Source of the DNA: a virus
IMG/VR virus record: IMGVR_UViG_3300031857_001190
Span: 1-26,240 of that record
Length of the DNA: 26,240 nt
Reading direction: 5' to 3' (one strand)
Shown: positions 2 to 15,168 of the stretch, piece after piece
Numbering within the stretch: the stretch's first letter is position 1
How the letters are laid out: each line of letters starts with the position of its first letter
Notes under the pieces: model-generated
Told to the model about the DNA's origin: nothing
Database searches by the model: none
What the model saw: the letters and a program-made list of their open reading frames with translations, nothing else
Program-made: the position numbers and the translations under genes

Positions 2-1414
2 ATGGCAGGGGGTATAGTTGGTTTAGGGTATACAGCCGCTAGTGGTGGTGATTTGAAGAAAGGCTTGATGGCTGGCCTTGGCGCATATGGCGGCGCTAGT
101 ATGTATGGCGCTATGAATCCTGCGGCTACGGCAACTGCTGGTGCAACACCTGTGCCTACAGCCACTACCGCGGTACCTGTAAATACTCCACCACCCATAA
201 CAAATTCTTCTATCCCCGGAATAACTAACACTGTTCCAGACGTAACGCAGTCGGTTATTACGCCGCAACCTGCGCCAATGAACCTTAACTCTTTATCATC
301 TAGCCCCATAACGCAAGGGCCAACAACTGCCCCAATTGGTAGCGACCTTACTCCATATGGCTCAAGCCAAGTAGGACTACCAAGAGCCACTAACCTTGCA
401 ACCACGGCAACAACACCTGCCTATACCCCCGCCGCTCAGTCGTTTGAAAGTTATGTTAAAGCTAACCCATACACTACTGCCGGAACTGCCGCAAGCATAT
501 ATTCTGGTTCTAAGGAAGAACCCAAGGCTCCAGACCCTGCCGACCCCGGCATGATTCGCCCATACACATATGAGCGCAATAAAAATGTTGACGCGTTCCA
601 AGATGCACCTACTAGCGGTTATGCACCGTTGAGTTCTAAAGAACGTAGATACTTCACTGATGACAAGTACACGGCTCTGACCCCATACAAAGCACCGGGT
701 CCTGAGTACAAAGCGGCTGGTGGTCCCGTAGAAGAAATGTCTAACAACGCGGCTATGGGTGCAAACACTATGTACCCAATGGCTAATACGGCAACGTCAT
801 CTTTTGCTACACCTTATCAGGCTCCTCAGTCTACAAACATGTTGGCTAACATGGTGGCTCCCTCTGGTGGCGGCGCAGTGGGTGCTATGTCTGGCGAACC
901 TAGTATGCAAGGTACCCGCATGGCGGGTGGTGGCGAAGTCCAACGTTTTGGCTTGGGTGGTATGAGTATTGACCCACAGAACGCGTCGGAAGGTGGTATT
1001 TTTGCACTGTTACGGCAGGCGATGGGGGCGGCAAGGCAGAAACAATCTGACCCACGCCAATACACCTACGACCCACAATCTCAACAATATAGCGAAATAC
1101 AGCAGGGTACCGCCGTTCCCGCGTTGGCTATGGGCGGTTCGTTGGGTGGCTACTCAGATGGTGGGCGTATGCTCAAGGGGCCGGGTGACGGCATGTCTGA
1201 CAACATTCCAGCAGTCATTGGTAAAAAACAACCTGCACGATTGGCAGATGGTGAGTTCGTAGTTCCAGCAGATGTGGTGTCACATCTGGGTAATGGCTCT
1301 ACTGACGCGGGTGCCAAGCAGTTGTACGCCATGATGGACAAGATTCGTGCCGCACGTACGGGCACAAAGAAACAGGGAAAGCAAATCAATCCCCGTAAAT
1401 ACATGCCAGCATGA
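2..1414 (+). CDS. Phage virion protein, 5'-partial (Gly/Ala/Pro/Thr-rich)
   Basis: The reading frame is open to the left edge and its first Met is probably internal, because the visible N-terminus is already a Gly/Ala-rich hydrophobic stretch of the kind found inside phage virion proteins and no ribosome binding site can be seen. The next 100 residues are Pro/Thr/Ala-rich and probably disordered. Residues 309-317 read GGGEVQRFG, a motif shared with the next two virion genes. The C-terminal 75 residues are the most protein-like part: GPGDGMSDNIPA, then a stretch around LADGEFVVPADVVSHLGNGS, ending in a basic tail. This C-terminal block recurs in structural proteins of aquatic phages as far as I recognise it. 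Its exact place in the particle (internal, ejected or tail) cannot be told. The stop overlaps the ATG of the next gene. Confidence 0.75.
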   Translation: MAGGIVGLGYTAASGGDLKKGLMAGLGAYGGASMYGAMNPAATATAGATPVPTATTAVPVNTPPPITNSSIPGITNTVPDVTQSVITPQPAPMNLNSLSSSPITQGPTTAPIGSDLTPYGSSQVGLPRATNLATTATTPAYTPAAQSFESYVKANPYTTAGTAASIYSGSKEEPKAPDPADPGMIRPYTYERNKNVDAFQDAPTSGYAPLSSKERRYFTDDKYTALTPYKAPGPEYKAAGGPVEEMSNNAAMGANTMYPMANTATSSFATPYQAPQSTNMLANMVAPSGGGAVGAMSGEPSMQGTRMAGGGEVQRFGLGGMSIDPQNASEGGIFALLRQAMGAARQKQSDPRQYTYDPQSQQYSEIQQGTAVPALAMGGSLGGYSDGGRMLKGPGDGMSDNIPAVIGKKQPARLADGEFVVPADVVSHLGNGSTDAGAKQLYAMMDKIRAARTGTKKQGKQINPRKYMPA

Positions 1415-1872
1415 CGTACGCTTTCACCGTAGAACGCTTCTCTGACACATACAGTGAACTCGAATCGCTGTACAGGCAACACTACGGGGAAATGGTCGAC
1501 AGGCTGGCTGGGCAGGGGATTACTTACTCACCCTATAACCCACGACTTGATGAATACGTCAAGGCAGGTGATGGTGGTTGGTTGCTGACATTTGTTTTGC
1601 GTTGTGAGGGGGTTGCTTGTGGGTATGCCAATGTGTATATCACCAACGACATGCACAACGGGGATTTGATTTCGCAGGAGGACACGCTTTTTGTACTAAA
1701 AGAACACCGCAACGGGGTCGGCAAAAAGCTTGTTCAGTTTGTACTCCAAGAGCTAAAATCTCGTGGCGTAAAACGTTTGATAGTGTCGGCAATGACCGAC
1801 TTGCGCGTTGCAAAACTTTGGGGCCGAATGGGTTTCAAAGAGGCTGCTACGCAAATGATTTACGAATTTTAA
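1411..1872 (+). CDS. GNAT-family N-acetyltransferase
   Basis: This 153-residue protein has the GNAT fold signature. Motif A, which binds the pyrophosphate of acetyl-CoA, is seen as HRNGVGKKL (residues 99-107), preceded by the beta strand DTLFVLKE and followed by helix LVQFVLQELKSRGV. The C-terminal half has strand KRLIVSAM and the motif B region with WGRMGFKEA (137-145). The acceptor substrate cannot be read from sequence; it could be a protein amine or a small molecule. The start codon overlaps the stop of the preceding virion gene (ATGA), so coupled translation is likely, and no strong Shine-Dalgarno sequence precedes it. Acetyltransferase genes embedded in phage structural operons are known, but their role is mostly untested; modification of a virion or host protein is an inference. 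Confidence 0.85.
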   Translation: MTYAFTVERFSDTYSELESLYRQHYGEMVDRLAGQGITYSPYNPRLDEYVKAGDGGWLLTFVLRCEGVACGYANVYITNDMHNGDLISQEDTLFVLKEHRNGVGKKLVQFVLQELKSRGVKRLIVSAMTDLRVAKLWGRMGFKEAATQMIYEF

Positions 1873-4464: not shown

Positions 4465-7400
4465 ATGGCAACATTCAACGCTGAAGCAGCACTAAAAGCC
4501 GGATACACAGAACTACAAATTGCAGAGTTCTTAGGGCAACAAAATAAATTTAATACTGCGGCGGCGTTGCAAGCGGGGTATGCCCCCGCTGACATCATTA
4601 AGCAATTAAGTGGGCCACCACCTACTACCTTTGGTGGGCAAACAAAAGAATTTTTCAAAGGTATCCCCTATGGGGCAGTTAATCTTCTTGAAAGTGCGGC
4701 TACTGGTGCGTCCGCATTGTTACCAGAGGATATGGAGAAGTCTGCACGCAAGACCATCTCTGAAACTGCCGCCGCCGCTAAGAAACCGTTTGAAGCCGCT
4801 AGAGGTTACGAAGAAACAATCCCCCGTAAATTAGGTGAATCGGGCGGCTCTACTTTGCCTTTCTTTGCGCTTGGCCCCGCAGGGTTGGCGGGACGTATTG
4901 GTGCTACAGGTTTGGGTGTAGGTGCTGGCGCAGGCGAAGCCCGTACCCGTGCGGAGCAAGAAGGCGCGACAGGTGGACAGCGTGCGGGGGCTACTGCTCT
5001 TGGTGCTGTAGTAGGTGTAACAGAAATGTTACCTGTGTTCCGCTTTATAGATAACTTAGCCAGCCCAATTAAAAAAGGCATCATGGGTACGCTTACCCGC
5101 GCCGCCGCTACAGGCGGTGCAGAAGGTTTGCAAGAAGCCGCCGCACAAATAGCGCAAAATTTAATTGCCAAAGGCGTTTACAAACCTGACCAAGCCATCA
5201 TTGAGCAAGTAGGTGAATCTGCCGCCTACGGCACAGCAACGGGTGCCTTGATTCAAGTTCTTACAGATATGGCATTGGGTCGCCGTGCTGGACAAGGAAG
5301 TTCTACACCCGCTGGTCAGGCTACAACAACCGAAGCAGAACAACAAGCCAAACGACTTCAAGTAGCGCAAGAGCAGATGGGCGTTAAGCAAGGGCGCGAA
5401 GCCCGTGCTGGTGAGAAGTTACTTAATGCTGAAGAGCGAAAAGCCGCTAAAGTAGAAGCCCTTGCACAAAAAGACCGCCTTGCTGAGATGGACCGCCTCA
5501 ATGCAGAGGCACGCACGCAACGCGAAGCCGACTTAAAGGCGGCGTTCCCAACCGACTATGCAGATGTGATGCAACGTACAGACAACTACGTTGAACTGAG
5601 CAAAGAGTTAGATGCAATTAGTGGTTCGCAAACCAAAGAAGCCAAAGCACGCCGTGGGCAAATCCAAGCACGGATGCAACAGATTGTTGAAGAAGATACC
5701 CGTGTACCCCGCGAGTTAAAGCGCATCCAAGACGACCAAGAACGCTTGGCTAAACAAGCTGGCTTTCCAGCAAAGAAGTCTGCCGCCGCATTTGAAGCCG
5801 CACCCCCACAGATGGAGATGCGCGAAGCGATGCTTGAGCCGGGGCAAGAGTTGCCACCACAGCGTGACTTGCAAGGAAACATCATTACACCAGAGGCACC
5901 CGTAGCGGAGCCTACTAAGCGTTTCCCCACATTTAAGACCGCAGAAGATGCGGCACGGGGCATGCAACGTGGTGAGGCGGCACTAGCCAAAGAAGCCACA
6001 GCCCTACGCAAAGAACAAGAAGCCGCTGGGCAGATGACGCTTGCGCCACGCGTTGAGCCAAAAGTAACCGAGCAGCCAGTTACCGAGCCTACGCTGGTGC
6101 AGAAGCCAGAACCCCTCACGCCTACAACTGTGCCAACCACCGTCACACCTGATGTGCTGGGTGCTTTGGGTATTGGTCGCACGGCAATCATCCGTAAGCC
6201 TGACCACGGCATCATGGGTAAAGATATTGCTGACCCTGCACAAGCCGCTGAAGTTAAGTCAATCCTCGAAGCCTACCGCCAAGGTCGTAGCGCACCCATA
6301 CAAGAAAAGATAGATGCATACCTTGCACGACCAGAATTCGAAGCAGTAAAAGGAGAGACAAATGCTAGACAAACTCAGCCACCCACAGATAGAAACGGCG
6401 TTCAAGTACCTGACCAAACCGGTGAAGGAAAGCCCGCCAGACGAACTCTCACAGCTAAACGAAATGGAATGGTTCCTCTTAAGCCGGATGCTAGACAGCC
6501 TGTTGTCAGAGAAGCTGAACAGTCCGCTCCAGTAGAAGAAACTAAAACCAAACATAAAACAACCTACGAAGGTAAACCCGCAACGGTAACTATCGTTCGC
6601 GATGCCTTGGGGAAAGTTGTTGATACAACAGTCAAAGTAGATGACGAAAAATTTGCTGCGGTAAACCTTGGGGCGCAGGGTGTAGTTACTGACGAACAAC
6701 TGCTCCAAAACCTGACTGACATAGGAACAATAGGGCAAGAAGAAACCGCTAAACCCCCAGAGGAGCCACCAGCACCCCCTGCCGAACCTAAGAAGCAGAT
6801 GGGTATGTTTGACCAGTTGGTACAGCCAGACGTTGCTGAAAAAGGTAAAGGCAAGAAAGCCGCGCCTGTTGAAGAGGAAGAAGCCCCTGCCGTAGAAGAA
6901 GTTAAGTTTGACCCGTGGGACAAAAAGAACTACCAAGGTCTGGCACAAGAAATTGAAAAAGGCACTACACGTAGCCCGCAAGAAGCCGCGCAAGATTTGG
7001 TAGATGCAAAGGCGGCAGACCGCGAAAGCAAGAAGTCCATCAAGGTTAAGTCTAAGCCTATACAAGAAGCTGTAGAAGAAGAGTCAACAGCAGAGAAAGA
7101 TGTACGTGCAGAGGCTACTGTTGCCGCTGTTAAGACCCTGACGGGTGCTGACAAGATGGTGCTGGCAAAGCACTACAAGCAACCCAAGTTCAATAAGGTT
7201 GCTGAGACATCGTTTGTTGACGACACCATCAAGGCTATTACTGACGGTATTGATTCCGTCTCTAAGGCAATCCACAAGTACGTTCGCAAGGCCATGTCTG
7301 GCATGCTGTCTGTGGCTTTGGTTATCAACCCAGCGTTTATGAGTTTGCCAGAAGCGGCGATTATCTCTAGCCCTGCTACCTACACAGTAGAGCAAGCGGT

Positions 7401-10400
7401 CAAAGCCACCATACCCGCAGAAGCCGCGAAGCTGATGTCGCCTGCCGCCAAGACTGCATACGAAACAATACTGCCTGCTATCAAAGCAGACTTACAAACA
7501 CGCGACAAACTATTCTTAATACACGACAAACCCTCGGCACGGACATTCTTGTTCACCCCTGATGGGCAGTTGTTGATGCAGTCCAAGACCTTGCAAGGGA
7601 TTGGCGTGGGGGACTTGTATAAAGGCAATAACGATATTGTTGCAAACCGCGTCACACCTGCTGGCCTGTTTACTATTGAGCAACGCGTTGGTGGTAAGAC
7701 TGCTGGTGAGTACGACTTTGGCAAGGTGTTTGGTATCAATGACACCGAAGCGTTTATCACCATCATGCACTCGGTCTGGACAAAAGAAGCCGATGCACCG
7801 CAACGACTGAAAGCGCTTAACAACGACTCAGCGGCGGACTCTCGCTATTCGTTTGGCTGTATCAATGTGCCCACTGCTACGTTCAAGCAGATGCTTGAGA
7901 AGCACGAAAACCAAATGAACGGCGCAAAGATGTTCATCGTGCCTGACAACCAAGCACGGGTAAAAGACTTTATTAGTGGTGACATAGCCAAGAACACAGT
8001 ACGCGAAGACAAACTCTTACGCCAATCAGTTGAGCCTGTAACTGAGAAAGTTACTAAGACTACATCAGGCGCTGGCAATGTACAGGCTGGAGTTGACCGC
8101 ACACTGTATGGCAAGCCAGAAGAAAGATTCTCTAGGCAAGAAGTCGTGCAAGGTCAAACCGTACAAGAGTTGACTGACGAAATTACAAAAGGTAAGGGTA
8201 TCCTTGCAAATGCTTTGCGCCGTATGGTGCAGTCTGGCAAAGTCAAACTTGAAGAAAAACATCCTAATGGAGAAAAGATTGGTGGCTATTTTGATGGCAA
8301 GACAATCACGCTATACGCTGACGGCATCCCATCGGGTGACGCAATGGCGGTTGCTCTACATGAAGTAGGCGCTCACTTAGGACTGAAGAATTTACTGGGT
8401 GTACAGCAATACAACAACGTCATTAAGCGCATCCAAGCGATGGCTAAAAGCAAAGAAGCTAGCCCAGCCCGCGCACTTGCACAGCGTGCGTTGTCACGCA
8501 TCCAGCAAGAAGATATTGTGCGTGGTGATGAAGTTATTGGTGATGAGTCAGTTGCGTACTTCATCGAAGAACTTGCCAAAGCGCAAGCGAAAGGTGAACT
8601 ACAAACTCTTGGTCCAGCCCGCGCTTTGTGGAATCAAATCAAAGCCGCTATCCAAGCAACTATCAATCGTGTGTTTGGCACCAACCTTGGCGTGGATGCG
8701 TTCACACCAGAACAGATTGGCTTACTGGCAAACGCCGCGTTTACAAGAGAATCGTTTACTGGAGTCAAAGAAGGTACGGCTGACCTTGCGTCCCGCACAA
8801 ATACCTTTACAGATGCATTCCGCAAATGGTTTGGTGATAGCAAAGTTGTAGACGAAGAAGGTAACCCTATTAGGGTTTACCACGGCACTACCCAAGATGT
8901 ATCAAAATTCAAAATGTCTCCAGATGGGGCGTTGGGCGCAGGCATTTACCTTACCCCCAACCCAGAGTTTGCTGGCACATATGCAGATACTTCAAACCTA
9001 GCGCGTAGTGACGCCGCCCTAGATGAGCAAGGCGGGCAGAACGTAATGCCGCTATATGCCTCTATAAAGAAACCGCTGGTACTTAGTGCCAAAGGTGACC
9101 CGATGGTTGACGCGCTAACCCAACTTGGGTTGACCCGCGAAAAAGCGGAAGCAATGGTTGAGAAAGCCTACGAAGAAAAAGGGTACATCGGCAAACAAGT
9201 GATGACCAGAGCGCAGGCCCAAGGCTATGACGGGCTGATGCAGTACCGCGATGGCAAACTGACAGAAGTAGTTGCGTTCTCAGCCAACCAAATTAAGTCT
9301 GCTACAGGTAACACAGGTGCGTTTGATATAAACAACCCTGACATACGTTTCTCTAGGGCGGAAGGGTATACCCCACAAGACTATGCCGAAGTAAATCGTA
9401 TTGCGAATAGTTATGGCCCTGCCGCCGCCCCTGCGGTGGGTGGTTTGCTAAACGACAGTTTAAAGGGGATGAATCGCGCCGCAGAAAATTCTGGACTACT
9501 TACCGCTTTCCGTCACAATCTTGTAGACAAACTAGCATCGGTGGAAGCTAAATTAACAAACAAGTTTTCTATGGGTGTGCGGGATTTCTTTGGTAATTTA
9601 AATCCCCTAGTTCTAGCGCGTCAGGCTGAAGACCACGGCAAAGTGTTTATGAGTTTTGTGTCCGACGGTGGGATTAAGATTAACAAAGAAGGTTTGGTAG
9701 AAACTTTTAAACAGCAAGCCTCAGTTGCACAAGCATTAAAAAATATACAAACATTTGGTCAAAACGCTGGTATTAGTTATGACGAAGCCAAAACATATAT
9801 ATCTAGCGTGCTAGAAGGTCACCGCGCTTACGACATCCAAGAAAACCATAACAAGCCATTAGAAGTATCTGCCGTTTTGTTAGAACAGCAAGGTAAGAAC
9901 AAAGAAGCCGACGCTGAACGCAAGAAGAAAATTGATTTGCACCTGACTGCGGCTGACATTGCTTCGCTAGAAGCGGTGTATCAAAAAACTCCTGCAATAA
10001 AAGAAATACAAACTACGTTTAATAAAACCCGTATGCATGTGGTTGATTTATTGGCGCAGTCAGGTCGTATCTCCAAAGAGACGGCTGATGATTGGAAAGA
10101 TAACTCTGCCTACGTGCCGTTTGACCGTGTATTTGAAGACCTTGGTGTTGACCCGTTACCACGCGGCAAGGGGCTTGGTGTAATGACCAAGACACCAAAG
10201 ATTAAAGGTTCACTTGACCGCCGTGTTAAAAATGTTGTTGACTCTTATATGGGTACGCTTGGCTGGATGGTCGAAGAATCCATGCGCCACAACGCCTCTA
10301 CCAAACTGTTAAATGAAATGCAGTTGGCAGGGTTTGCGGAGAAGCATCCAACAATCAATGCCGCCAAAAACAAAGAATTAGTAGTTCGCCTGTACGAAAA

Positions 10401-12051
10401 CGGCAAACCCGTGTTCTACGAAGTTCAGAACGAGTACGACTTACTGGCGTTTAAACAAGCGCCTGAGATGAATAATTTTTTAGTAAATAGTTTAGCCGCT
10501 ACATCTAAAATTTTACGGGTCAGCGTAACTGCAATGCCGCCATTCGCCATAAAGCAGGTTGTGGAAGATGCAACCCGCGCTGCGTTTTACTCTGGTGTAC
10601 AGCGCCCGCTAGTTGTGGCAATGAAAACTTTGTACAACTTACCCCGTGCGTTCTTTGGTGAAGTGACAGGGCGTAAATCCCCAGTCGCTAAAGTACTTGA
10701 ACAATTGGGTGTCATAGGGGATTACGATTTAAATATTTATGACCCTACTTCAATTGAAAAAGACATTGGCGCTAAAAAGCGCAATATGGCTGGCTCAATT
10801 TTTAATATATTAGAAAGCTTTACAAAAGCATCTGATCTTGCCGCTCGTATGGCTGTGTACGAAGAAACTATACAAGATACCAAATCCACGCAATACCCAG
10901 AAGGTGACAAAGTGTTAGCGCAAACCCGCGCACGCGAATTGATTAACTTCCAACGCCGTGGTTCTAGCGATTCAATGCGGGTGCTGACTCGTGTCATCCC
11001 GTTCTTTAACGCTTACGCGCAAGGTATGGATGTGCTGTACCGTAGCGCATCTGGTATTGACTCATCGTCTTCCATAGAACGTGGCGCGGCACGGCGCTTA
11101 TTTATGGGTCGCGTTGCTATGATGACTGCGATGGGTTTTGCTTACGCAATAGCAATGAGTGATGACGAAGGTTACAAAAATGCTACGGACGATAAGCGCG
11201 ATAACAATTGGTTGGGACCCAACGGCTTTAAATTACCATGCCCAAAAGAATTAGGGTTTATATTTAAAGTTATTCCAGAACGTATTGTTGAGTACTTCAA
11301 CCGTAGTGGTACGCCAGAAGAGCAAAGCGTAATGGCTGCGTTGTCTGGGGTTATGAAAGCGGGTTACTCCGCGTACTCAACACCCACCGCGATACCGTCG
11401 TATATCCGTCCAATTATTGAAAATGCAGCTAACTACTCAGTCTTTTTGCAACGCGAGTTGGAATCTGCTGACCAACGAAAAAAATTACCGGGCTACCGTT
11501 ATGAATCTGGTACATCTGAACTAGCAAAAAGTCTAGGTGAGGCAACTAATATATCGCCAATTAAAATAGATAACACGATTAAAGGTATGTTTGGTATGGC
11601 TGGGTCAACTACGCTGTTGATAACAGACGCTATGCTTAACCCAACGCGCCCTGACCGTCCAATTTCCCAACTACCGTTTGCCAGTATCTTTACTTACGAC
11701 ACAGTTGGTGGGCGGGCTAAGACTGAGTTCTATGACTTGCGTGAACGTGTGTCGCAAGCGGACTCTACGTTCAAAGACCTTCTGAAATACAACCCAGAAA
11801 AGGCGCAGAAGTTTTTAGAAGAGAACCAATCGCTTATTGCTATGGCGCCGCTAATTAACAAGAGTTTAAAAGACCTCAGTGAAACACGTAGTGTGCGTAT
11901 GTTCGTTGAGCAAGGCACCGAAGCCCAACTTGGTATAGATAGCGCAGAGCGCCGTAGACTTATTGACGAACTGCGGGGTTATGAAAACGACTCTCTCAGT
12001 TATGTGCGCGGCATTGAAAAGCAAATGCGCGATATGGATTTACTGCAATAA
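4465..12051 (+). CDS. Giant phage polyvalent protein: L,D-transpeptidase, zincin-like, ADP-ribosyltransferase and LPD38-type domains
   Basis: At 2528 residues this fills nearly a third of the window. In order: tandem AGY repeats (4-50); a Gly/Ala-rich hydrophobic region (about 115-200); long charged, coiled or disordered stretches (about 280-930); a hydrophobic segment (about 945-965); a YkuD-type L,D-transpeptidase (about 1005-1160) with TPAGLF, His1102 and SFGCINV around Cys1132; a zincin-like domain (about 1225-1440) with HEVGAH at 1299-1304 and Glu1361; an ADP-ribosyltransferase of the polyvalent-protein type (about 1455-1631) with His1473, Tyr1495 and Glu1601, ending NPDIRFSR; and a roughly 900-residue C-terminal region with FFNAYAQGMDVLYR, resembling large polyvalent protein domain LPD38. 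Such proteins are thought to be injected with the genome. The start lies one base after the previous stop and lacks a clear Shine-Dalgarno sequence, so translation may depend on coupling. Whether the chain stays whole or is processed is unknown. Confidence 0.85.
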   Translation: MATFNAEAALKAGYTELQIAEFLGQQNKFNTAAALQAGYAPADIIKQLSGPPPTTFGGQTKEFFKGIPYGAVNLLESAATGASALLPEDMEKSARKTISETAAAAKKPFEAARGYEETIPRKLGESGGSTLPFFALGPAGLAGRIGATGLGVGAGAGEARTRAEQEGATGGQRAGATALGAVVGVTEMLPVFRFIDNLASPIKKGIMGTLTRAAATGGAEGLQEAAAQIAQNLIAKGVYKPDQAIIEQVGESAAYGTATGALIQVLTDMALGRRAGQGSSTPAGQATTTEAEQQAKRLQVAQEQMGVKQGREARAGEKLLNAEERKAAKVEALAQKDRLAEMDRLNAEARTQREADLKAAFPTDYADVMQRTDNYVELSKELDAISGSQTKEAKARRGQIQARMQQIVEEDTRVPRELKRIQDDQERLAKQAGFPAKKSAAAFEAAPPQMEMREAMLEPGQELPPQRDLQGNIITPEAPVAEPTKRFPTFKTAEDAARGMQRGEAALAKEATALRKEQEAAGQMTLAPRVEPKVTEQPVTEPTLVQKPEPLTPTTVPTTVTPDVLGALGIGRTAIIRKPDHGIMGKDIADPAQAAEVKSILEAYRQGRSAPIQEKIDAYLARPEFEAVKGETNARQTQPPTDRNGVQVPDQTGEGKPARRTLTAKRNGMVPLKPDARQPVVREAEQSAPVEETKTKHKTTYEGKPATVTIVRDALGKVVDTTVKVDDEKFAAVNLGAQGVVTDEQLLQNLTDIGTIGQEETAKPPEEPPAPPAEPKKQMGMFDQLVQPDVAEKGKGKKAAPVEEEEAPAVEEVKFDPWDKKNYQGLAQEIEKGTTRSPQEAAQDLVDAKAADRESKKSIKVKSKPIQEAVEEESTAEKDVRAEATVAAVKTLTGADKMVLAKHYKQPKFNKVAETSFVDDTIKAITDGIDSVSKAIHKYVRKAMSGMLSVALVINPAFMSLPEAAIISSPATYTVEQAVKATIPAEAAKLMSPAAKTAYETILPAIKADLQTRDKLFLIHDKPSARTFLFTPDGQLLMQSKTLQGIGVGDLYKGNNDIVANRVTPAGLFTIEQRVGGKTAGEYDFGKVFGINDTEAFITIMHSVWTKEADAPQRLKALNNDSAADSRYSFGCINVPTATFKQMLEKHENQMNGAKMFIVPDNQARVKDFISGDIAKNTVREDKLLRQSVEPVTEKVTKTTSGAGNVQAGVDRTLYGKPEERFSRQEVVQGQTVQELTDEITKGKGILANALRRMVQSGKVKLEEKHPNGEKIGGYFDGKTITLYADGIPSGDAMAVALHEVGAHLGLKNLLGVQQYNNVIKRIQAMAKSKEASPARALAQRALSRIQQEDIVRGDEVIGDESVAYFIEELAKAQAKGELQTLGPARALWNQIKAAIQATINRVFGTNLGVDAFTPEQIGLLANAAFTRESFTGVKEGTADLASRTNTFTDAFRKWFGDSKVVDEEGNPIRVYHGTTQDVSKFKMSPDGALGAGIYLTPNPEFAGTYADTSNLARSDAALDEQGGQNVMPLYASIKKPLVLSAKGDPMVDALTQLGLTREKAEAMVEKAYEEKGYIGKQVMTRAQAQGYDGLMQYRDGKLTEVVAFSANQIKSATGNTGAFDINNPDIRFSRAEGYTPQDYAEVNRIANSYGPAAAPAVGGLLNDSLKGMNRAAENSGLLTAFRHNLVDKLASVEAKLTNKFSMGVRDFFGNLNPLVLARQAEDHGKVFMSFVSDGGIKINKEGLVETFKQQASVAQALKNIQTFGQNAGISYDEAKTYISSVLEGHRAYDIQENHNKPLEVSAVLLEQQGKNKEADAERKKKIDLHLTAADIASLEAVYQKTPAIKEIQTTFNKTRMHVVDLLAQSGRISKETADDWKDNSAYVPFDRVFEDLGVDPLPRGKGLGVMTKTPKIKGSLDRRVKNVVDSYMGTLGWMVEESMRHNASTKLLNEMQLAGFAEKHPTINAAKNKELVVRLYENGKPVFYEVQNEYDLLAFKQAPEMNNFLVNSLAATSKILRVSVTAMPPFAIKQVVEDATRAAFYSGVQRPLVVAMKTLYNLPRAFFGEVTGRKSPVAKVLEQLGVIGDYDLNIYDPTSIEKDIGAKKRNMAGSIFNILESFTKASDLAARMAVYEETIQDTKSTQYPEGDKVLAQTRARELINFQRRGSSDSMRVLTRVIPFFNAYAQGMDVLYRSASGIDSSSSIERGAARRLFMGRVAMMTAMGFAYAIAMSDDEGYKNATDDKRDNNWLGPNGFKLPCPKELGFIFKVIPERIVEYFNRSGTPEEQSVMAALSGVMKAGYSAYSTPTAIPSYIRPIIENAANYSVFLQRELESADQRKKLPGYRYESGTSELAKSLGEATNISPIKIDNTIKGMFGMAGSTTLLITDAMLNPTRPDRPISQLPFASIFTYDTVGGRAKTEFYDLRERVSQADSTFKDLLKYNPEKAQKFLEENQSLIAMAPLINKSLKDLSETRSVRMFVEQGTEAQLGIDSAERRRLIDELRGYENDSLSYVRGIEKQMRDMDLLQ
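4474..4614 (+). repeat. Tandem 25-residue AGY repeat at the N-terminus of the giant protein
   Basis: Residues 4-28 and 29-50 align with a period of 25: Phe4/Phe29, Ala12-Gly13-Tyr14/Ala37-Gly38-Tyr39, Ile19/Ile44, Leu23/Leu48. Each unit looks like a pair of short helices with an AGY turn, similar in look to small UBA-like helical modules. Comparable AGY motifs occur at N-termini of other phage polyvalent proteins as I recall them. A role in binding the particle or another virion protein is only a guess. Confidence 0.7.
6350..6355 (+). promoter_or_regulatory. Shine-Dalgarno sequence of the embedded gene
   Basis: AAGGAG lies 6 bases before the ATG at 6362, inside the coding sequence of the giant gene. 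It is closer to consensus and spacing than the sites before the acetyltransferase gene or the giant gene itself, which is the main argument that the embedded frame is translated. Confidence 0.65.
6362..6535 (+). CDS. Putative small gene embedded in another frame of the giant gene
   Basis: A 57-codon frame lies wholly inside the giant gene, shifted one base relative to it. It begins with ATG at 6362 after AAGGAG at 6350-6355, a 6-base spacer, the best ribosome binding site of the left block. The product starts MLDKLSHPQIETAFKYL, has a PPDELSQLNEMEWFLLSRML core and ends SPLQ; it is predicted helical, with Trp, Phe and Leu spaced as in a folded helical pair. In contrast, the giant protein over the same bases is Pro/Thr/Gln/Arg-rich and looks like a disordered linker, so the embedded frame appears to be the one under structural constraint. 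I have a weak memory of small phage proteins with this style of sequence but cannot name a family. The alternative is a chance frame, which the strong binding site makes less likely. Confidence 0.55.
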   Translation: MLDKLSHPQIETAFKYLTKPVKESPPDELSQLNEMEWFLLSRMLDSLLSEKLNSPLQ

Positions 12052-12128: not shown

Positions 12129-12347
12129 TCACGCAACTCTCCATGCGCGTACACCCCACATGCCATTTTCTATACGCGCCCTGCACTGCACTTTCATATC
12201 GAAAGTTCTTGCTACAACGATGATGTGAGTAACTACAGCACGGTTGTCTAGGCAAGGCACAAAGAAGGACGAGCCTGTTATGAACTTGCCCCACTCTATG
12301 TTTACTTGTACGCCTTCAATCTCAAGCGACTTTGAGTGCGTCGTCAT
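12129..12347 (-). CDS. Small conserved-looking phage protein, unknown function
   Basis: A 72-residue frame that begins inside the 3' end of the primase-helicase gene (26-base overlap) and is the last gene before the leftward terminator. It has alternating strands and a helix, with VNIEWGKFITGSSFFVPCL near the middle and a basic end GVRAWRVA. The pattern (aromatic strand, short charged helix, aromatic strand) looks like a small folded protein. There is no strong Shine-Dalgarno sequence, so translation probably depends on coupling to the primase gene. I do not recognise a named family. A second frame over the same bases (12067-12294) is Cys/Arg-rich and less protein-like. Confidence 0.55.
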   Translation of the reverse strand: MTTHSKSLEIEGVQVNIEWGKFITGSSFFVPCLDNRAVVTHIIVVARTFDMKVQCRARIENGMWGVRAWRVA

Positions 12348-15168
12348 CAGTAGTCTTAGCGATGATTGAATCTACATCAAATACACTGCTAAGTGAGTCG
12401 TCTATCAGGATAGCGTTTACAGGTGGTGCTGCAACCATTAGACCTTTTGCCATACGTTTCTTCACAACCTCTACGCGTACGCCATCATTCTTTAGTGCAT
12501 TTAATGTTTCGTGGTAACTAACTTGGTTCTTTGAACACCAGTCTTTAAACGCACGTTGTACGAAGTACAAACACTTTGTATCCATATCGTATCGAATCAT
12601 CAACGCATTCATCGGGGTCATCAACGGCGCTTTGGGTAGCCCGTTGTCTGCAACCTTGTCGTGACCGACCAAGATGCTACGAATGTTGGAATTGATAAAC
12701 GAACCGATTGCAGAGATGCCGTCTATTGGGATAGCCTTGATGTCGGTACTACCCTTACGCAAGAACGCTATGAGCCACTTGAAGATGCGCTTAACGTCAA
12801 TATCAATCAAGCCCAAACGCTGGGCGATAAACCCGCCTGTGATGGCAACAGCACCAAGGCTAGACCAGAAGCGTTCACGCTGACCCAAGCCAGCCGCCGC
12901 ATCCAGTTTAAGTTGTACATCATGCAGAACTTCCAATGCTTCAGCGCGATTCTCTACAAGATACTTCATGTAGATTTCACCAGCCAGACCAAAGTTCTTG
13001 TGCAACTTGGCAAACAAAGCGTCAGTAAATTCCTTAGAGAAATTGGCATCGCGCTCAATCTTCAACTCAATGATACGCATCAACTCACCCTCTGGAAATT
13101 CCTTTAGGCTATACAGCTTGTCGTACAGGCTGGCGTTAGATGATGTGATTGCTATCAGTCGCCACATTGTGTTGTTGATACGTTCTGCGTTGACTTGTGA
13201 CTCCATGCGATTCTTGCCACGCCCTTGGGTTGTAGCGTAAGCCAACTGCGAAACGATGTCTTCGCGCATGTTTGTGATTTCGTCAATCGTCACAGGCAAG
13301 TTGTTCATCACCCCAAAGCGAAAAATCTTTGAGTTGTATGTATCGTCATTTTGTAGAAGTAAGTCAAACGGCTCACCCCAGATACTGTTGATTGCCATCT
13401 GCACAGTCGACTTGCCTGTACCAGAACTGCCACTCAGTAAGTTAACGATACCGCCCCGCACTTGTGTGAACTTCAGCAACGGTGTGCCAAAGCCCAATAG
13501 AAAAGCAAACGCTTGTGCTTCCATGCCGGGGTTGTCGTAGAAATTAACGACTGACTTCCACTCTGCCAAGTCACCCTTCTTACCCAGCAAACCGCAGGTC
13601 TGCAAGATGGCAGTTGAGGGTGGGCTGTACTTAACACCTGTCGGTGTGATTTCTCTATCGCCAAGAACAAATGTGTTCTCGTCTGTCCAGCCAAATTGTG
13701 TTCTAACTTTTTCTGCTTGTTCCATATTTTGTAACTCCTTTACCCAACGTGATACATAAAACATGAGTTCATTTACGCCTTTATCAAGGGCTACTACACC
13801 ATGTTCCCCAATCGCATCGCGAAATCGGTCTTTGGCGAGTGCCGCTGTAAGCGGTATCGAAAACTCCCTCACTCCATCTTTTGGCAGATGCAACCGCATC
13901 CACAACACTTCCCCTAAAGCTGGGTCAAACATTCGCTTGACCACATAAAAATCGTTCTCATAGACTAACTTGTCTTGCCCGTCTTCTTGGCCTGCATCTG
14001 CTTTGCGGTAGATGCCACCATACTTGCCACGAAAAAAGGGAAAGGGGTACGCGGGTATGTCGTACACCCGCTTTTCTTTTGTCTCTGCGTTAACTTGTTC
14101 TACTTTATTATCTGCTTCTGTTGCTGCTTCAATTTCTTTTCCCAACACGATGGGCGAACCAAACTTACCTTTGTGCTTGCATGACCCGCAAGTGTTGGGG
14201 TGTAGGGTATCAAACATACCGCATGTGTATGGACCCTTGGTCAGACTCGCCTTGTATTCTGTTTGCCCCCTATCGTATGCGGGGTGCATGTTGGAGATGT
14301 CGTGGATGGCGGAGTCGCGGTCAATGCAATGCTGTGCAACCGATAAGCCCGCACGCCACAAGGGTTCGTCTATGTTGGTTTGGTCTTCCAGTATGCGGTT
14401 GAGTTGCGGGCAACCCTCTGCTTTGAGGGCAATGATTTTCTGAAAGCGAAAGGTATTGTTCTTACCAATCAGGCTCTTGCTAGTCTCGTCTAGCCCTTCA
14501 GCTTTAAGGTGTTCTGGCACTTCAAAGGGTAGGCTGTCTGGGGCTTGGGCGGTTGTCGCACCCAAGGCTTTTGCAAACTCTATCAAATCAATCTTGCCAT
14601 CACCAGCGATGTATTCGACAGGTAACGGATTGGTTGGGTCTTTAAAGTGTGTAGTGTCTGGCACGCGCAAGATGCGGGCGGCATCTGTGGTGCATGACGG
14701 GTCAGCGTGTAGTTGCTTTTCTATGCAAACTTCTTTTAGGCGCTTCGCTACGGGAATCCAAATGTCTTTCTTTATTGCTTCGTCTAGCACCCAGTACGCA
14801 TGTAGTCCGTTGCCAGAGTTAATGCAGATGGGTTGTGGGAGATTAAGGTCAGCACAGAACTGACCGAGTGCCGCTATCGCATCGACCCGCGTAGGGTAGG
14901 CTTTTGTGGGTCCGCAATCTAGGTCAAGCCAGAACGACTTGATGACTGATACGTTCGCCGCCAACCTACGGGGTGGGTTGATTGCAGGGTCGAACGAAGA
15001 CATCGCAAAATACGCGTCTGCGCCAGCACCGTGGATAGTTTCAATCTCTGTAACGAGTGTGGGAATGTCATTTGTAAACCGTGTGCGAATCTTGCCTTGC
15101 ATTATTCCAACTGCGCAGTATGTGCCTGTATCGGCAAGCACTGCGGTTAGAAATTCTGTTTTTGTCAT
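12322..15168 (-). CDS. Primase-helicase: AEP-type primase fused to a DUF927-type ATPase
   Basis: This 948-residue protein should prime and unwind DNA at the phage fork. The N-terminal domain carries archaeo-eukaryotic primase motifs: FWLDLDCG with Asp82 and Asp84, INSGNGLHAYW with His123, and an acidic/basic stretch ending ARILRVPDTTHFKD (164-177). Cys316, Cys327, Cys330 and His332 could hold zinc between the domains. From about residue 370 (YPFPFFRGKYGGIYRK) the sequence resembles DUF927, a helicase-like ATPase family. Walker A is SGSSGTGKST (579-588) and Walker B LPVTIDE (624-630). No DnaB-type helicase is seen in the window, so this is probably the replicative helicase. The ATG at 15168 has no clear Shine-Dalgarno sequence. 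A strong site inside the gene precedes Met482 in frame and could give a shorter ATPase-only product. Confidence 0.9.
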   Translation of the reverse strand: MTKTEFLTAVLADTGTYCAVGIMQGKIRTRFTNDIPTLVTEIETIHGAGADAYFAMSSFDPAINPPRRLAANVSVIKSFWLDLDCGPTKAYPTRVDAIAALGQFCADLNLPQPICINSGNGLHAYWVLDEAIKKDIWIPVAKRLKEVCIEKQLHADPSCTTDAARILRVPDTTHFKDPTNPLPVEYIAGDGKIDLIEFAKALGATTAQAPDSLPFEVPEHLKAEGLDETSKSLIGKNNTFRFQKIIALKAEGCPQLNRILEDQTNIDEPLWRAGLSVAQHCIDRDSAIHDISNMHPAYDRGQTEYKASLTKGPYTCGMFDTLHPNTCGSCKHKGKFGSPIVLGKEIEAATEADNKVEQVNAETKEKRVYDIPAYPFPFFRGKYGGIYRKADAGQEDGQDKLVYENDFYVVKRMFDPALGEVLWMRLHLPKDGVREFSIPLTAALAKDRFRDAIGEHGVVALDKGVNELMFYVSRWVKELQNMEQAEKVRTQFGWTDENTFVLGDREITPTGVKYSPPSTAILQTCGLLGKKGDLAEWKSVVNFYDNPGMEAQAFAFLLGFGTPLLKFTQVRGGIVNLLSGSSGTGKSTVQMAINSIWGEPFDLLLQNDDTYNSKIFRFGVMNNLPVTIDEITNMREDIVSQLAYATTQGRGKNRMESQVNAERINNTMWRLIAITSSNASLYDKLYSLKEFPEGELMRIIELKIERDANFSKEFTDALFAKLHKNFGLAGEIYMKYLVENRAEALEVLHDVQLKLDAAAGLGQRERFWSSLGAVAITGGFIAQRLGLIDIDVKRIFKWLIAFLRKGSTDIKAIPIDGISAIGSFINSNIRSILVGHDKVADNGLPKAPLMTPMNALMIRYDMDTKCLYFVQRAFKDWCSKNQVSYHETLNALKNDGVRVEVVKKRMAKGLMVAAPPVNAILIDDSLSSVFDVDSIIAKTTDDDALKVA
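13735..13740 (-). promoter_or_regulatory. Strong in-frame internal Shine-Dalgarno sequence in the primase-helicase gene
   Basis: On the minus strand AAGGAG is followed after 9 bases by ATG at 13725-13723, which is Met482 in frame. Translation from here would make a 467-residue product with both Walker motifs and no primase domain. The annotated start of the gene has a much weaker site. Confidence 0.5.

Follow-up and report, generated by a model that had tools for sequence, protein, structure and literature searches.

The stretch of DNA analysed here (the window) comprises 26,240 nucleotides (nt) of the IMG/VR virus record IMGVR_UViG_3300031857_001190 and holds a plus-strand gene for a giant polyvalent protein of 2528 amino acids (aa; positions 4465..12051). 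Wholly within this open reading frame (ORF), and in the +1 frame relative to it, lies a second ORF (6362..6535, +) that starts with ATG at 6362, stops with TAG at 6533-6535 and encodes in its 57 codons the product MLDKLSHPQIETAFKYLTKPVKESPPDELSQLNEMEWFLLSRMLDSLLSEKLNSPLQ. It is thus a complete ORF in a different frame inside another coding sequence (CDS), as is expected of an overlapping gene. A Shine-Dalgarno (SD) motif, AAGGAG (6350..6355, +), is separated from ATG 6362 by the 6-nt spacer AGACAA. A preliminary description of the window had pointed to a 57-codon frame one base off the giant frame, with AAGGAG and a 6-base spacer, and all of this was found exactly where it had been placed. The dual-frame stretch (6361..6534, +) corresponds to residues about 633-690 of the giant, which read NARQTQPPTDRNGVQVPDQTGEGKPARRTLTAKRNGMVPLKPDARQPVVREAEQSAP and form a linker of the disordered type; it is rich in Pro, Thr, Gln and Arg, as had also been described, and can likewise be read as a Pro/Ala/Gly/Val/Thr linker. 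When the codons of the window's giant were shuffled synonymously 5000 times, an alternative-frame ORF of at least 57 codons with ATG and SD motif appeared in 142 of the shuffles (~3%). Taken by itself, the window makes a modest case for the nested ORF that is suggestive only, and it is conservation that makes it real. A 53-codon ATG frame just upstream (window 6152-6313) shares the +1 frame of the nested gene.

A search for the 57-residue product among metagenomic phage sequences, as proposed in the preliminary description, gave 96 confirmed relatives in IMG/VR, of which 80 were kept (53-98% identity). One of the 80 is truncated at the end of its contig. Throughout the 80, the small ORF overlaps an extended open frame of the giant type, in one and the same relative frame. 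Its ATG or GTG start is usually preceded by a GGAG-type site: among the 62 distinct sequences of this set, which were used for the SD and open-frame counts, 60 carry an SD-like motif at the start, compared with 7.1% of the same-frame start codons elsewhere in the giants. The small ORF therefore has a conserved start codon and ribosome site of its own, as an overlapping gene should. Its product has the conserved core EWFLLSRMLdsLLxEKxxSPLQ, of which EWFLLSRML is invariant across a 30-member alignment. Further giants, fetched through their N-terminal domain, hold small ORFs that have diverged much further (about 21-50% identical to that of the window); without exception these too are nested in the giant and share the relative frame.

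Synonymous rates were compared in both frames, as had also been proposed, and each substitution was classed by its effect in both. For pairs that are 80-100% identical, the ratio of nonsynonymous to synonymous substitution rates (dN/dS) in the overlap was 0.13-0.15 in the small frame and 1.4-2.1 in the giant frame; purifying selection, a further mark of an overlapping gene, is thus present in the nested frame. Substitutions follow the codon periodicity of the small frame, with most at its position 3 and fewest at its position 2, and insertions and deletions (indels) preserve this frame. Comparison of the overlap with the 300 codons of the giant before and after it (45 pairs) gave the complementary picture. 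Third codon positions of the giant differ at 0.331 and 0.386 in the flanks before and after, versus 0.022 in the overlap, and the synonymous rate (dS) of the giant falls from 0.59 and 0.74 in the flanks to 0.027 in the overlap, with a dN/dS of 4.15 there against 0.28 and 0.35 in the flanks. The loss of synonymous freedom in the host frame, as expected of an overlap, is confined to the overlap; outside it, the giant evolves as a normal coding gene (dN/dS 0.28, 0.35 and 0.23). The giant frame nevertheless runs open through the overlap in 62 of 62 sequences, while synonymous recoding of the small protein leaves it open in 5.7% of cases on average; together with the coding-type flanks (dN/dS 0.28-0.35) this indicates that the host frame is translated through. 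Since the giant frame is always open against this expectation and dN/dS of the small frame is low, both frames appear to be selected, the small frame for its sequence and the giant frame for staying open.

These comparisons bear directly on three readings in which the small frame would not be an independently started gene. A chance open frame with a chance SD motif and without a product would fit the window alone, at P about 0.03 under the synonymous shuffles, and hydrophobic-poor linkers naturally carry long +1 frames. Start, SD motif, length and protein sequence are however kept in 80 of 80 relatives, and neither a small-frame dN/dS of 0.13 nor the fall of synonymous change in the giant to 0.027 is compatible with chance, so that this reading is already refuted by the comparative data. 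Hardly more credit can be given to a non-coding RNA or DNA element (a packaging, recombination or regulatory site): the stretch is indeed the best conserved part of the giant's variable middle, but the substitutions have the periodicity of small-frame codons, indels keep that frame and similarity of the protein persists down to about 21-35% identity. The small frame could also be reached by frameshifting out of the giant, so that it would form the C-terminal end of a longer product and have no start of its own, and some homologues are indeed open in the small frame upstream of the start. Yet several loci have an in-frame stop 0-4 codons before the start, start codon and SD motif are conserved at 60 of 62, and no shared slippery site was seen by eye, without a systematic search; we consider this reading very improbable, and the small frame does not qualify as part of a frameshift product.

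Some points weigh against the view that 6362-6535 is a gene. The compared sequences are related, and the counts are therefore not independent draws, although the effect sizes are very large. All homologues of the 57-aa family come from uncultured IMG/VR contigs and no isolate matched. Of 72 scorable giants of one clade, 24 are without a recognisable copy, and the nested gene is therefore not essential to every such giant. Moreover, the case is built from sequence comparison, and translation is deduced from it. With these points taken into account, we are nonetheless highly confident that 6362-6535 represents a genuine and ancient overlapping gene, a statement on its reality and not on its function. 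That its product is made as a separate small protein from inside the giant gene, as the preliminary description had suggested, is strongly supported by the conserved start and SD motif, the selection on the small frame, the lost synonymous freedom and the open frame of the giant.

The distribution of the gene can be followed along the giants. Exactly one copy was present per contig in 50 of 50 whole contigs with the nested gene. Of 49 contigs without a copy in the fetched stretch, 47 have none anywhere; the other two are G013, with a copy just beyond the fetched stretch, and G024, with a weak match only (E 0.001) and a stop inside. No free-standing homologue was found in INPHARED phages, in bacterial and archaeal genomes or in the 99 whole virus contigs. 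When presence of the nested gene is mapped on a tree of the giants' N-terminal domains, 3 changes suffice, compared with a mean of 20 after shuffling, and the carriers are spread around one absent clade. The nested ORF thus appears to be ancestral, with about three changes on the tree of the giant; presumably it was passed down together with the giant, and one main clade lost it or saw it diverge past recognition. The preliminary description had held that homologous giants without the frame would speak against a gene; such giants do exist, in separate clades, and were not met among the near relatives of the window. Judged from the tree, their lack of the frame is clade-specific loss (or divergence past recognition) and not chance. 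The clade L174-L237 comprises giants that lost, or never had, the nested gene, and was crudely scanned for a replacement nested gene. A match to the N-terminal domain of the giant that could indicate the bacterial host of this phage group was not obtained in bacterial genome contigs.

The giant itself carries two domains that pass the Pfam cut-offs and identify it as a polyvalent protein, of the kind known from phages and conjugative elements (Iyer et al. 2017, PMC5512222): an ART-PolyVal ADP-ribosyltransferase (ART) domain (residues 1463-1620, 8851..9324, +; PF18760, E 7e-29) and an LPD38 domain (residues 2234-2406, 11164..11682, +; PF18857, E 4e-26). Its Gly/Ala-rich N-terminal domain (residues 45-280, 4597..5304, +), which served as tracer for relatives with and without the nested gene, is conserved, and its middle is variable, with the nested gene as the best conserved stretch of this middle. 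In the window the giant follows on genes for a GNAT acetyltransferase, an ejection-protein-like protein (phrog_4287, E 2e-19) and a protein of 534 aa. Pelagibacter phage HTVC034P has a cassette of the same order (tubular B, GNAT, internal virion protein B, gp45 and gp44; gp47-gp44), with a giant that is shorter (1229 aa) and lacks a member of the 57-aa family. By this synteny the giant probably fills the slot of the third ejection protein, the position of gp16 in T7. It is probably injected into the host.

For the small protein, AlphaFold2 (AF2) on 69 homologues predicted two helices (residues 7-18 and 34-53) with a mean predicted local distance difference test score (pLDDT) of 81 and a predicted template modelling score (pTM) of 0.56. 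The helical character noted in the preliminary description is therefore supported by the model, whereas the regular spacing of Trp and Phe is loose at best, with one Trp (W37) and two Phe (F14, F38). Cys is absent from the protein, and neither a signal segment nor a membrane segment is evident. Several leads were followed and set aside. Matches to phrog_5825 (E 0.0016) and MarR (E 0.88) are weak and were treated as chance, as was an NblA-like two-helix adaptor (PF04485), which was hit by 2 of 69 members (best E 0.0035) and not by the window protein. A nested o-spanin of the Rz1 type is not in agreement with a protein without Cys and a host gene that is not Rz.

We propose that ribosomes would start internally at AAGGAG-ATG 6362 on the mRNA of the giant, presumably late and together with the ejection cassette, while other ribosomes pass through this stretch in frame 0 and translate it as the unstructured linker of the giant. 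The linker would be the tolerant partner that must only remain open and hydrophilic, and the small protein would dictate the sequence. With a ribosome site of its own, the small helical product may well be made in more copies than the giant. As to its function, we tentatively favour a small accessory partner of the giant, such as a chaperone or a cofactor of loading or ejection; because the small protein is found only with the lineage of the giant, help to the giant in folding, capsid loading or ejection is the most plausible role. The missing weighty match for the small protein in Pfam, PHROGs, the PDB and Foldseek (with Foldseek, none below E 3) speaks against this assignment. Action on the host, in takeover or counter-defence, is conceivable with somewhat lower likelihood; it would follow the general pattern of de novo overlapping genes in eukaryotic viruses (PMC8227390) and suit the predicted amphipathic two-helix form, but the family is strictly bound to the lineage of the giant, was never found outside it and has a late cassette position. 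We regard as rather unlikely a role of the small protein in immunity or as an antitoxin, by which the producing cell would be protected from the enzymatic domains of the giant during synthesis of the latter. A nested protective gene would be logical for a giant with an ART domain such as that of the window. However, four other carriers (L093, L098, L119 and L128) have no detectable ART, which rules out that this domain is needed for the nested gene and is weak evidence against immunity, as most domains of these giants are unrecognised; furthermore, the effector region changes around the nested gene.

How the overlap arose can be viewed in two ways, overprinting of the giant gene or capture of an older gene, both of which were named in the preliminary description and are not separable with certainty. 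Overprinting is favoured, with reservation, because the small frame is phylogenetically restricted and no free-standing copy is found. Alternatively, the gene is equally real but older: it would once have stood free between two structural genes, whose fusion into the giant then overran it, a scenario that we hold to be possible and the lesser candidate. Judged by the fit to the synonymous codon usage of the host gene, the small frame surpasses the giant frame within the overlap in 42 of 62 sequences (Wilcoxon p 8e-6), which would favour an older small gene or a long dominance of the small frame. Both the codon-usage criterion and a model for engulfed genes, the latter proposed for S within the P spacer of hepatitis B virus, are found in the literature (PMC8227390). 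According to the same source, however, old overprinted genes too converge on the codon usage of their genome; in addition, the absence of a free-standing copy from the 99 whole contigs, cultured phages and bacterial genomes and the existence of giants without the nested gene argue against an overrun gene.

The 57-aa gene is not the only one of its kind: on comparative grounds, other polyvalent giants harbour at least two further unrelated families, of 124 aa and 120-138 aa, which occupy the same relative frame. The 124-aa family (MFKPVIVAKKSWWVPE...NWEDFLT; loci L323-L340, e.g. L323:6001-6372, +) lies in the +1 frame of giants of up to about 4000 aa. Its 18 contigs are 66-100% identical, with conserved ATG and upstream GGAG and a small-frame dN/dS of 0.2-0.3; the AF2 model is poor (pLDDT 56). 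The 120-138-aa family, with the signature M[YHQF]QVP..[IV]WN (L351:5127-5519, L353:7001-7393, L354-L357 from 9001, and L358-L396; +1 frame), was first met in Vibrio phage D274 (giant of 3162 aa). Relatives occur in Vibrio phage 1.232.O, Pseudomonas phage Skulduggery, Serratia phage Parlo, Klebsiella phage ZX1 and Ruegeria phage 45A6, all in +1 under annotated giants of 3292-3912 aa (DarB-like, PLxRFG, methylase-like). A nested CDS is listed at this position in none of the six isolate records. In Skulduggery, the nested start is at position 33577 of MF042361. A scan of IMG/VR gave 39 loci, of which 39 are nested in +1 and 33 have an SD-like motif; dN/dS is 0.25-0.38 in the small frame and about 1.05-1.27 in the giant frame. 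A weaker case, present in three contigs only (L320-L322:6001-6195), is a 65-aa ORF with IPLTRENYLELAYPE and an AGGAG site in the +1 frame of giants. Protein-like +1 ORFs with an SD motif are also nested in the giants of Aeromonas phiARM81mr, Achromobacter CF418P1 and Planktothrix Pag-Yong1 (L347:3840-4034, L349:7578-7784 and L352:2122-2331; the Pag-Yong1 ORF has AGGAGGAG) and are candidates from single genomes; for the two of these three that were searched, no divergent relatives were found. Comparison by hhalign revealed no kinship between the main nested families.

The recurrence may have a simple basis in the codons of the linkers. A stop in the +1 frame needs T at the second codon position of the giant, i.e. 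a hydrophobic residue, and +1 frames are therefore long in linkers that are poor in such residues; as polyvalent giants have long linkers of this type with few T-second codons and few +1 stops, nested genes recur in them. T at the second position amounts to 0.143 in the overlap and 0.243 in the rest of the giant, a comparison that is partly circular as the small frame must be stop-free. It is an attractive though still uncertain generalisation that polyvalent ejection giants are recurrent hosts whose disordered linkers repeatedly gained unrelated, conserved +1 genes (the 57-aa, 124-aa and 120-138-aa families, with the 65-aa and single-genome candidates). The products of these genes would be partners dedicated to the giant, and selection would maintain the genes there and not the linker sequence as such.

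Out-of-frame nested genes of phages include E within D and B within A of phiX174 and Rz1 within Rz. In phage lambda, the small product Nu3 arises from an internal start within virion gene C and in frame with C; the window gene resembles it in the internal start within a virion gene and differs in being in the +1 frame, so that no residues are common with the giant. Embedded spanins are found in Serratia phage Parlo (PMC6606913). Like the phiX174, Rz1 and Parlo cases, the window gene is complete, is in another frame, has its own ribosome site and lies where both frames are used; unlike them, it is hosted by a giant polyvalent gene, faces an unconstrained linker in the host frame and encodes a protein without signal peptide or lipobox Cys. 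A structured protein over the disordered spacer of a multidomain protein is also seen for S and the polymerase spacer of hepatitis B virus (PMC8227390), although virus and proteins are unrelated and the small gene codes for an envelope protein there. The literature searched, which left subscription papers mostly outside its scope, yielded no report of a nested gene in either a polyvalent or an ejection gene, and a term search of Iyer et al. 2017 (PMC5512222) gave no mention of nesting in polyvalent genes.

Ordinary gene callers miss nested genes, and whole families are unannotated in the records examined, including one that is carried by cultured phages of widely used laboratory genera. The nested genes sit in the gene for a giant, probably injected effector that many phages use against host defences, and may thus belong to the counter-defence machinery. 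They also offer a clean natural test of gene birth in disordered linkers, with regard to which frame is older, to the reason for the constant +1 and to the lifetime of such overlaps, and because the 120-138-aa family occurs in cultured phages, the claim is open to direct laboratory tests.

Two further genes of the window deserve mention. Convergent to the giant lies a gene for a 948-aa protein with a DUF927 domain (window 12322-15168, minus strand), which probably starts the replication module. The GNAT acetyltransferase of the virion cassette (window 1411-1872) is encoded just upstream of the ejection-protein genes and is placed alike in HTVC034P, Skulduggery, Parlo and Klebsiella ZX1.
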